A stretch of DNA of 64,000 bases from Embleya hyalina (lineage in GTDB: Bacteria > Actinomycetota > Actinomycetes > Streptomycetales > Streptomycetaceae), in NCBI RefSeq assembly GCF_003967355.1, contig NZ_BIFH01000020.1, positions 62,001-126,000 on the forward strand, written 5' to 3'. Shown in pieces: positions 27,411 through 29,552 of this stretch. The stretch's first letter is position 1; each line of letters starts with the position of its first letter. Made by a program: the position numbers and the translations under genes. The notes beneath the pieces were generated by a model. It searched no databases and was not told the DNA's origin. It was given only the letters and a program-made list of their open reading frames with translations.

Positions 27411-27689
27411 GTGATCACCGCGATCGTGCAGGTCAAGACGCGTGTGGACCAGACCCCGGAAATCGCGGAGGCGATCGCCGCGATCGAGGGTGTGAGCGAG
27501 GTCTACTCGGTGACCGGTGAATTCGACCTGATCGCCATGGTGCGCGTACGCGCCCACGACGACCTGGCCGACGTCATCCCCGGCCGCCTCAACAAGGTCC
27601 CGGGAGTAGAGGCCACCACCACCCACATCGCCTTCCGCACCTACTCCCAACACGACCTGGAAGCAGCCTTCGCCATCGGCCTCGAATAA
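27411..27689 (+). CDS. Lrp/AsnC ligand-binding (RAM) domain protein without DNA-binding domain
   Basis: A 92-residue stand-alone RAM domain: MITAIVQVKT, GVSEVYSVTGEFDLIAMV and IPGRLNKVPGVEATTTHIAF are the characteristic beta-alpha-beta segments that bind amino acids and build octamers. The N-terminal helix-turn-helix of full Lrp is missing, so it cannot bind DNA by itself and may modulate other Lrp proteins or an enzyme. GGAGGA is eight bases before GTG 27411. It converges with the class V aminotransferase gene; a hairpin follows the stop. Confidence 0.88.
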   Translation: MITAIVQVKTRVDQTPEIAEAIAAIEGVSEVYSVTGEFDLIAMVRVRAHDDLADVIPGRLNKVPGVEATTTHIAFRTYSQHDLEAAFAIGLE

Positions 27690-27815: not shown

Positions 27816-29198
27816 TCACGCCACAGGCAACTCCGCGTCGGGAACGCACCGGCCCCCATCCACCGTGTAGCTCCACCGCGCGCCCCGCTCCACCACTTCC
27901 CGAACCGCCGCCGCGAAGCGGTCCAGGTGCTCGACGGGCGTCCCCAGACCGAAGCTGACCCGGATCGCGTTCAGGTTCTGCTGCCCCTCCGGCGCGTCCG
28001 GCGACCCACACTCGGTCGGCTGATCGGCCCGCCCGCCCAACAGGTGCCGCACCAGCGGGTGCGCGCAGAACAGCCCGTCCCGCACCCCGATCCCGTACTC
28101 CGCCGACAACACCGCCGCGAACCGCGAGCTGTTCCACCCCTCGACCACGAACGAGAGCACACCCACCCGCGCCGACTCGGGCCCGAACAGCTCCAGCGTC
28201 CGCACCTGGGGAATCTCCGCCAACCGCGCCCGCAACCGCGCCAACAACGCCTCCTCGCGCGCGACCAACGCCGCCGGCCCCGCCTCGGTGATCGCCCGGC
28301 ACGCGGACGCCAACGCGTAGGCGCCGATCACGTTCGGCGACCCCGCCTCGTGCCGGGCCGCGCCGCTCTGCCACTCGACGTGGTCGCGCGAGACCGCCTT
28401 GCTCGCCCCGCCGCCCGCCAGGTACGGCTCCGCCGCGTCCAGCCAGTCCCCGCGCCCCGCCAACACCCCCGAGCCGAACGGCGCGTACAGCTTGTGCGCC
28501 GACAGCGCGATCCAGTCCACGTCCAGGTCCGCGACCGACACCGGGTGGTGCGGCGCCAGTTGCGCCGCGTCCAGCACGATCCGCGCCCCGAACCGGTGCG
28601 CCACCTCGGCCAGTTCCGCCACCGGGAACAGCTCGCCGGTCACGTTCGAGGCACCGGTCACGCACACCAGCCGAGGCCCGTCACCGGAGCCTTCGAGCGC
28701 GGCCTCCAGCGCCGCGACCGCCTGCGCCGGCGAGGACGGCGCCGCCAACTGGGTCACCCCGGCGTGCCGACGCCACGGCAGCAGCGCCGCGTGGTGCTCG
28801 GTCTCGAACACGAACACCCGGGTGCCGCGCGGCAGTACGGAGGCGAGCAGGTTCAGCGAGTCGGTGGTGCCCCGGGTGAACAGCAGCGTGTCGTCGCCCC
28901 GCAGCCCGAGGAACTCCGCGACCGTGGCCCGGCTCTGCTCGTACAGATCGGTGGACAACTGCGACAGGTAGCCGGCGCCGCGATGCACGCTGCCGTAGTA
29001 CGGCAGATAGCCGGCCACGTCGTCCCACACCCGCTGCAGACACGGCGCGCTGGCCCCGTAGTCGAGCGCCGCGTACTCCACCTCACCTCCGGTGACCAGC
29101 GGAACGAGCACATCCCGCCCGACCACGGGCAGGGGGGCGGCGATGGCGACATCGGCGTCGAAGGCGGCGGAAGCGACGGAAGCGGTACGGGCGGTCAT
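27816..29198 (-). CDS. Class V aminotransferase family PLP enzyme under a SAM riboswitch
   Basis: A 460-residue fold-type I PLP enzyme related to cysteine desulfurases. The Schiff-base lysine is in WIALSAHKLYAPFGSG, PLP contacts are RGTTDSLN, the His in ETEHHAALLPW and the Asp in IVLDAAQLAPH. A cysteine is present in LFCAHPLVRHLL but not in the usual SSGSACxS desulfurase context, so desulfurase activity is uncertain. The start ATG 29198 has GAGGAG seven to eight bases upstream. A SAM riboswitch lies in its 500-base leader (29432-29552), which strongly suggests a role in methionine, cysteine or SAM metabolism. The exact reaction is not known. Confidence 0.85.
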   Translation of the reverse strand: MTARTASVASAAFDADVAIAAPLPVVGRDVLVPLVTGGEVEYAALDYGASAPCLQRVWDDVAGYLPYYGSVHRGAGYLSQLSTDLYEQSRATVAEFLGLRGDDTLLFTRGTTDSLNLLASVLPRGTRVFVFETEHHAALLPWRRHAGVTQLAAPSSPAQAVAALEAALEGSGDGPRLVCVTGASNVTGELFPVAELAEVAHRFGARIVLDAAQLAPHHPVSVADLDVDWIALSAHKLYAPFGSGVLAGRGDWLDAAEPYLAGGGASKAVSRDHVEWQSGAARHEAGSPNVIGAYALASACRAITEAGPAALVAREEALLARLRARLAEIPQVRTLELFGPESARVGVLSFVVEGWNSSRFAAVLSAEYGIGVRDGLFCAHPLVRHLLGGRADQPTECGSPDAPEGQQNLNAIRVSFGLGTPVEHLDRFAAAVREVVERGARWSYTVDGGRCVPDAELPVA

Positions 29199-29236
29199 GG
29201 CGAATCTCCTCGGCAGACGGGAACCGACCCGCGCAA

Positions 29237-29252: not shown

Positions 29253-29431
29253 TCAAATCGGCGCAGGGTGATCCCCGGATGAAATGTGGTCTCGGAACAG
29301 CGACGCGCGACGATTCAGCGCGTACGGAATGGGCCGATCAGCCCGTTTCGAGAAAGAGATTTCACGCCATCACATGCTCCCCGGGTACAGGACCCGGTTC
29401 GCATGGGGCAATTGCCTGCCGTCACACCAGG

Positions 29432-29552
29432 GGTCCGCGCTTGCCGGGACGCCTGACGACGCCCGACCGTGTCATCACCCGGGGCACCCCACCGCGGAGC
29501 GAGGGTTGCCGGACAGCAAGCCGGGGCTTTCCACTGTCACTCGTGACCTGCG
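29432..29552 (-). promoter_or_regulatory. SAM riboswitch (actinobacterial SAM-IV type)
   Basis: Read on the minus strand, the conserved blocks occur in order: GGTCACGAGTGAC (P1 start), GTGGAAAGCCCCGGC, TTGCTGTCCGGCAACCCTC, CGCGGTGGGGTGCCCC, GGGTGATGAC (P1 close), and after a variable stem GGCAAGCGCGG. These match the SAM-binding core and the 3' pseudoknot element of SAM-IV riboswitches known from actinomycetes. It binds S-adenosylmethionine and should lower expression of the downstream aminotransferase gene when SAM is high. It lies 234 bases before the start codon. The assignment to SAM-IV rather than SAM-I is from memory of the consensus. Confidence 0.88.

Follow-up and report, generated by a model that had tools for sequence, protein, structure and literature searches.

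A SAM-IV riboswitch ahead of a SufS-like class V enzyme in Embleya hyalina and a candidate expression platform with a short leader peptide in its relatives

Known SAM-IV leaders and riboswitches acting on short open reading frames

The pairing of a SAM-IV riboswitch with a class V PLP enzyme is already known, in print for two streptomycetes. In Streptomyces lividans, the available text of PMC8079986 places SAM-IV upstream of SLIV_26975, which is termed a cysteine desulfurase and was transcribed in RNA-seq, and Table 3 of that paper labels the riboswitch target "Thiamine metabolism." In S. clavuligerus, the available part of PMC8269248 reports that CRV15_21540, which encodes a class V PLP enzyme, is preceded by a premature transcription unit at SAM-IV, at which the drop in read counts was among the most extreme. 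These two leaders share with the locus described here the aptamer class and the kind of downstream gene, and the two genes are equated with our enzyme, called ATV below, through riboswitch and annotation and not through sequence. As far as the available portions of the two accounts extend, they give neither an expression platform nor an upstream open reading frame (uORF). Excerpts from work on other actinobacteria place SAM-IV before an O-acetylhomoserine sulfhydrylase in Mycobacterium avium (PMC3774663) and before cg1478 in Corynebacterium glutamicum (PMC3890552).

The closest systems in terms of mechanism are mycobacterial. In M. tuberculosis, the M-box controls a small uORF; its platform is translational, and termination depends on Rho (PMC12810186, available text). 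Like the SAM-IV leader proposed here, it acts directly on the site at which ribosomes bind a short uORF, with termination coupled to it; the two differ in ligand, aptamer, and conserved uORF, and Rho was demonstrated for the M-box, whereas the SAM-IV leader is a candidate read from sequence, with a six-codon frame that ends in a G+C-rich hairpin. The B12 riboswitches with uORFs in M. tuberculosis (PMC11260477, available text) likewise link a riboswitch to the translation of a uORF in the neighborhood of methionine genes; they differ in responding to B12 and in a coupling that is partly termination-reinitiation at overlapping open reading frames. If our reading is correct, SAM-IV would join a small set of uORF-acting riboswitches composed so far, in the literature available to us, of these mycobacterial M-box and B12 elements. 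That reading, to which we assign a probability of about 0.5, is that SAM-IV acts as an OFF switch on ATV and would work by hiding a Shine-Dalgarno site, in part through a uORF, and that ATV is a SufS-like desulfurase serving homocysteine synthesis.

A SAM-IV aptamer upstream of ATV in Embleya hyalina

The window, meaning the whole 64,000-nucleotide stretch of E. hyalina DNA that was analyzed, contains the following features of the unit, with trpD as context outside it:

29432-29548, minus strand: SAM-IV riboswitch aptamer (RF00634), full length, 98 bits by cmscan against a gathering threshold of 38
29206-29211, minus strand: Shine-Dalgarno GAGGAG of ATV, read from the sequence
27816-29198, minus strand: ATV, a SufS-like class V (Aminotran_5) PLP enzyme of 460 amino acids, with K236 and with C378 in R-D-G-L-F-C-A-H-P; PF00266, 256 bits
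29701-30804, minus strand: trpD, the conserved upstream neighbor; TIGR01245, 352 bits

The initial annotation had read a SAM riboswitch of the SAM-IV type on the minus strand at 29432-29552 and had named a covariance-model search as the check. Run with Rfam, that search returned RF00634 at 29548-29432 with a score far above threshold (98 versus 38 bits; E value, 1.1e-16) and an alignment spanning model positions 1-116 of 116, and the three sequence blocks that had been quoted as SAM-IV-like are present in the window and align to the model. SAM-IV was the sole gathering-level Rfam match by cmscan in the 64 kb, and a single copy was found in the whole assembly (12.05 Mb, 78 contigs). The aptamer ends 233 nt before the ATG of ATV at 29198, on the same strand. 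The gene that had been proposed as the target, 27816-29198, is the next one on that strand, and all 80 of the best-matching named loci likewise have SAM-IV upstream of this gene. Because of the covariance score and the placement kept in relatives, a chance origin of the call is excluded. We infer that the window aptamer binds SAM and acts in the OFF direction, the latter being supported by the published premature transcript. Convergent with ATV, at 27411-27689 on the plus strand, is a small frame that by reading resembles a stand-alone Lrp/AsnC ligand-binding domain.

Conservation of the riboswitch-ATV pairing

The 80 named loci are the best protein matches and hence a chosen set, mostly Streptomyces (by title, 74 Streptomyces, 2 Actinacidiphila, and 1 each of Embleya, Kitasatospora, Microtetraspora, and an unclassified actinobacterium); the closest match in a named genome was that of Embleya scabrispora, with 95% identity over the best segment. 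The distance from aptamer to start codon ranged from 42 to 430 nt (median, 187; 79 of the 80 loci), and trpD was present in the fetched stretch at 75 of the 80. Apparent duplicate records (L032 and L306, L034 and L027, L048 and L018, L063 and L025) are not independent, and RNA alignment A1 contains both L027 and L034. In a sample of the family, 118 of 121 genomes had SAM-IV, and each of the 31 family loci fetched (the genome's own and the best 30) carried both ATV and trpD.

In a sample of 198 genomes from the phylum Actinomycetota, ATV (E ≤ 1e-60) was found in 14 and SAM-IV in 19, and 12 of the 14 ATVs had an adjacent SAM-IV. A class sample of 394 genomes yielded ATV (E ≤ 1e-80) in 139 genomes from 45 of 138 genera, including 39 of the 40 Streptomycetaceae sampled. 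A set of 66 distant loci was assembled from 60 loci fetched from the class sample and six from the phylum sample and was scored with a covariance model built in this analysis. SAM-IV was recovered at 59 of these, and a conserved ATV motif lay on the same strand less than 700 nt downstream at 58 of the 59; L278, at which the motif check failed, nevertheless had an ATV start in the hairpin-to-start analysis described below and is one of the 59 platform leaders. The built model gave no match at 7 of the 66 loci (L151, L152, L255, and L292-L295), among which L255 represents an additional copy of ATV in a Streptomyces genome. SAM-IV is sometimes present in several copies, with four to six in some family genomes (G041:C169, G030:C1) that include near pairs on opposite strands.

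ATV resembles group II cysteine desulfurases

Several lines of evidence relate ATV to SufS. A profile of 35 ATVs had SufS as its nearest PDB proteins, and an AlphaFold2 model (pLDDT 86.8, pTM 0.87) superposed on SufS 4w91 with a Z score of 43.8 and 2.0 Å over 384 residues at 29% identity (VIA-align), with several SufS chains within 1 Z of the top score and therefore counted as ties. The top VIA-align and Foldseek matches were exclusively desulfurase-type chains, and other class V families remain compatible. Against the NCBIfam SufS model TIGR01979, ATV scored 256.9 bits, below the curated cutoff of 475.1, and we therefore file it as SufS-like rather than as SufS.

Twelve residues were invariant in all 145 aligned ATVs (H135, H136, D210, Q213, H235, K236, R373, F377, C378, A379, H380, and R413), the alignment comprising the window, the 80 named loci, and 64 of the 66 distant loci (L264 and L281, which had no gene-call match, were omitted). 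We take these positions to correspond to E. coli SufS residues. ATV thus shares with group II SufS the fold, the PLP lysine, the position of the catalytic cysteine, and the substrate arginines; it differs in having F-C-A-H in place of H-C-A-Q/R, in a longer and variable segment after the cysteine, and in scoring 257 of the 475 bits. The initial annotation had stated that the usual catalytic-Cys context was lacking. The cysteine itself exists: C378 aligns with the catalytic Cys of the C-terminal SufS loop and was conserved in every one of the 145 proteins. The neighborhood, however, does differ as stated: the loop reads F377-C-A-H380 in all 145, the SufS H-C-A-x-P motif does not occur, and the flanking His has moved position. 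It had also held that the protein sequence alone would not reveal a role in sulfur metabolism, which does not stand; because C378 and the other residues of the SufS set are invariant, the protein by itself indicates sulfur chemistry.

The placement of the enzyme in sulfur amino acid or SAM metabolism agrees with what SAM-IV precedes elsewhere. Outside the Streptomycetaceae, SAM-IV was found before metX (L157 and L163 by NCBIfam; L159 and L161 by metX coordinates), before metY (L160, L163, and L166 by NCBIfam; L164 by reading), and, in genome G128 (L158:3818-5871), before an operon of DUF1737, rhodanese-like, and metZ genes (metZ, 754 bits). The rhodanese-like assignment in that operon is by reading, NCBIfam having given no family, and the operon is possibly a SAM-controlled sulfur relay. 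In genome G310, a rhodanese gene lies 60 nt downstream of ATV. Considering its fold, its invariant residues, and its coregulation, the most likely role of ATV is that of a SufS-like cysteine desulfurase that would form a persulfide and supply the sulfur for making homocysteine.

It is conceivable, though we consider it unlikely, that ATV is instead a C-S lyase acting on imported organosulfur compounds, such that low SAM would turn on alternative sulfur uptake and cleavage. Other SAM-IV sites (L143, L149) precede peptide-type solute-binding proteins (SBP_bac_5), luciferase-like monooxygenase genes adjoin the SAM-IV sites L144, L149, and L158, an SBP_bac_5 gene overlaps the end of ATV by 4 nt in G127 (a genome with no SAM-IV), and at L283 two divergent SAM-IVs face ATV and a flavin monooxygenase-like cluster. 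However, the full SufS catalytic set is invariant, including the loop Cys, the occurrence of ATV in 39 of 40 sampled Streptomycetaceae fits core metabolism, and no transporter recurs beside ATV among the matches listed. No recurrent operon partner of any kind was found among those matches, which cover about three quarters of the 66 distant loci. Two Streptomyces genomes (G039, G047) have extra, weaker SAM-IVs before other genes, including those for solute-binding proteins.

A candidate expression platform that hides the ribosome start site

On the 3' side of the aptamer, two features recurred when 85 leaders were read: GGGTCC...GACCC and a purine-rich ribosome site. The mean longest complementarity between the aptamer tail and the next 92 nt was 5.99, against 5.13 in shuffled sequences, a modest excess. 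A joint platform test was defined on three elements: a tail GGACC or variant pairing with a 5-mer, inclusion of that 5-mer in one arm of a hairpin with 5 or more pairs, and Shine-Dalgarno-like letters within reach. All three were present in 33 of 59 leaders from outside the Streptomycetaceae (1.1 in shuffles) and in 28 of 81 Streptomycetaceae leaders, the window included (0.85 in shuffles); the shuffles for this and for the uORF were mononucleotide and preserve base composition alone. In its strict form, the combination was missing from 26 of the 59 (L281 among them) and from 53 of the 81. In 11 Streptomycetaceae, the tail reads GGATC with the partner GATCC, a two-sided change from GGACC/GGTCC.

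These features suggest a platform that hides the Shine-Dalgarno or ribosome start site. With SAM bound, the tail would be held in the aptamer pseudoknot, the hairpin would form, and ribosome entry would be blocked; without SAM, the tail would capture the GGTCC strand and free the Shine-Dalgarno site. Outside the Streptomycetaceae, the site so controlled would in most lineages be the start of ATV itself. In all 33 non-Streptomycetaceae leaders with the joint arrangement, the first ATV-frame start lay 7 to 17 nt past the hairpin (median, 12), and therefore the platform there acts, if at all, on ATV translation. A plain intrinsic-terminator platform was weakly supported, with 6 of 20 leaders passing a stricter terminator test that the window failed.

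A conserved six-codon frame in Streptomyces leaders

In most Streptomyces, the site freed or blocked would be the one at which a six-codon uORF begins. The pattern [AG]TG-N6-CGA-ATG-NNN-TAG was present in 73 of the 80 named leaders and had no other occurrence in the same 1.45 Mb; it typically encodes MSKRMR-stop, with the consensus x-x-K/Q-R-M-R-stop. The first codon is GTG in 71 and ATG in 2, the second is variable, and the third is AAG in 48, CAG in 21, and another in 4. Codons 4 (CGA), 5 (ATG), and 7 (TAG) are invariant in all 73. For comparison, the 80 ATV genes use CGA for 34 of 2,708 Arg codons and TAG for 6 of 80 stops. The seven leaders in which the pattern is missing are L062, L034, L040, L058, L076, and L097, which are short (42 to 98 nt), and L032, which is from Embleya. 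The core was found in 25 of the 30 loci L002-L031 and in 30 of 30 further family loci (the sets overlap), was absent from the 26 other SAM-IV and SAM-I loci tested, and had a single occurrence, remote from ATV, among the 66 distant loci. From 12 further regions, 11 leaders were obtained. Three of these (L310, L314, and L316) fit the pattern; L312, L313, and L315 come close to it, with a different start codon or a stop directly after the ATG.

A G+C-rich hairpin starts 0 to 4 nt from the uORF TAG in 69 of the 73 leaders, compared with 0.25 per shuffled sequence. From this spacing we infer that a blocked uORF would lead to an early stop of transcription, and that on a translated uORF RNA polymerase would continue. 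At least 3 T in the 10 bases after the hairpin were found in only 35 of the 69; given such sparse T tracts and the few leaders passing the terminator test, termination may be Rho-dependent or absent.

The frame could also be untranslated, with CGA-ATG-NNN-TAG conserved for a function of the RNA itself, perhaps as one strand of an antiterminator or as a site for a protein or for Rho. The invariance of CGA, ATG, and TAG at the nucleotide level would fit such an element, but we regard it as unlikely: codon 6 encodes Arg in 70 of the 73 through three synonymous codons (CGA 45, CGC 17, CGT 8), the start codon varies among GTG, ATG, and (in L312 and L313) TTG, and in the rows inspected an in-frame start codon stands 7 to 12 nt past Shine-Dalgarno-like letters.

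Translation of the uORF as part of the OFF switch would offer a simple account of SAM-IV action in streptomycetes, in which mapping of this leader has so far yielded just a premature transcript. The eight S. lividans leader peptides in Table 4 of PMC8079986 (available text) do not include one of the MSKRMR type. A search for "MSKRMR" in the open-licence PMC papers covered found nothing, and an earlier description elsewhere is possible; within the literature searched, a SAM-IV/ATV expression platform with an R-M-R leader peptide is probably previously undescribed.

The leader in the window

The Embleya leader has the following candidate elements:

29432-29440, minus strand: aptamer 3' tail GCGCGGACC; its proposed anti-sequester GGACC (29436-29432) can pair with GGTCC at 29394-29390 (from the sequence; joint platform test positive)
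29381-29397, minus strand: proposed sequestering hairpin CCGGGT-CCTGT-ACCCGG, which shares two bases with the 5' end of the Shine-Dalgarno; kept with changes in L305-L307
29377-29382, minus strand: Shine-Dalgarno-like GGGGAG of a putative mini-ORF, from the sequence
29362-29373, minus strand: putative mini-ORF GTG-ATG-GCG-TGA (or ATG-GCG-TGA), with identical letters in L305, L306, and L307
29331-29345, minus strand: hairpin CGGGCTGATCGGCCC 3' of the mini-ORF, a possible terminator with a weak T tract; L306 keeps the pairing as GGGCG-AAT-CGCCC

The mini-ORF occupies the place at which most Streptomyces leaders have the six-codon R-M-R uORF, and it may be a degenerate form of it. Its stop codon lies 163 nt before the ATV start, and the downstream hairpin begins 17 nt beyond that stop, near or past the ribosome footprint; a test for at least 5 T among the 9 bases that follow a hairpin gave no hit in the window. 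The minimum free energy fold of the window contains the sequestering hairpin, extended by CATGC/GCATG around the Shine-Dalgarno, and does not contain the pairing of the tail with GGTCC. The window leader was compared across four genomes only, and the three others of the genus (L305, L306, and L307) retain GTGATGGCGTGA. L307 has CACGTG for CATGTG, and therefore an ATG-TGA reading is not conserved and GTG-ATG-GCG-TGA is. By reading, both strands of the stem that encloses the Shine-Dalgarno differ, being CATGC/GCATG in the window and GGTGT/GCACG in L307. The window leader also has a 35-codon frame that contains a Cys, which was set aside because L032 differs there.

Homocysteine pathways and other arrangements

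Streptomyces is reported, by Hasebe et al., to have a homocysteine route through MetM and MetO. For this route, the available text of PMC12172450 cites Hasebe et al. as its reference 44. Like ATV, the MetM/MetO route is under a SAM riboswitch: one SAM-I was found in each of the 13 Streptomycetaceae genomes tested, and it adjoins MetM by coordinates in the 8 genomes compared. ATV is unlinked to the MetM/MetO locus, and its coinheritance with that locus is not strict. Across the 394 genomes, 113 had both ATV and MetM, 26 had ATV only, 136 had MetM only, and 119 had neither (odds ratio, 3.8); with the window's own family removed, the counts were 74, 26, 135, and 119 (odds ratio, 2.5), and both ratios are inflated by related genomes. 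An obligate MetM/MetO partner for ATV was rejected as a strict rule, with 26 of the 139 ATV genomes lacking MetM and 136 MetM genomes lacking ATV. In the phylum sample, the four ATV genomes without MetM all had metX. A role for ATV as a replacement for MetX was unsupported, metX being present in 8 of the 14 ATV genomes and in 64 of the 184 others; 4 of the 8 Streptomycetaceae in that sample lacked MetX. Sulfur would pass through MetM/MetO in most ATV carriers and through MetY/MetZ in others.

That ATV is a housekeeping desulfurase (for Fe-S, thiamine, or tRNA sulfur) under incidental SAM control is quite improbable. Its SufS-like fold and residues and the S. lividans label of thiamine metabolism (Table 3 of PMC8079986, available text) would be compatible with that role, but E. 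hyalina encodes elsewhere a SufS-like paralogue with a stronger Aminotran_5 match (498 bits) and the motif GHHCAR, and the control is by SAM, common to met genes, and neither by TPP nor by an Fe-S regulator. If ATV does serve homocysteine synthesis, a single invariantly conserved family would be the likely missing sulfur donor, including in some hosts without MetX. A more detailed version of this reading is doubtful: SAM-IV in Streptomyces and its kin might act on ATV only indirectly, via the R-M-R leader peptide, the translation of which would determine whether RNA polymerase continues into ATV. The leader would then respond to SAM through ribosome entry and maybe to the supply of methionyl- or arginyl-tRNA through pausing at CGA-ATG, where a rare Arg codon precedes Met. 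In this version, ATV might be a new F-C-A-H desulfurase family devoted to passing cysteine sulfur to homocysteine, which in MetM carriers would mean charging MetO.

The E. hyalina MetO-like protein is encoded after MetM and has the C terminus GGC. At that locus (L176; C30:31976-33417), SAM-I precedes MetM, which is threonine-synthase-like, and a ThiS/SAMP-like carrier, whose -GGC end places a Cys beyond the usual Gly-Gly. Elsewhere in this genome (C14:424926-427337) is a metX-metY-like pair without SAM-IV. In genome G169 (C75:67592-67960; L155/L181), SAM-I and SAM-IV stand back to back, 164 nt apart, with SAM-IV facing ATV and SAM-I facing a 2OG-Fe(II) oxygenase that is weakly WelO5 halogenase-like. 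At L283:1956-2291, one member of a divergent SAM-IV pair precedes ATV and the other precedes frames that by reading are luciferase-like monooxygenases, an arrangement that suggests a SAM-controlled organosulfur cluster.
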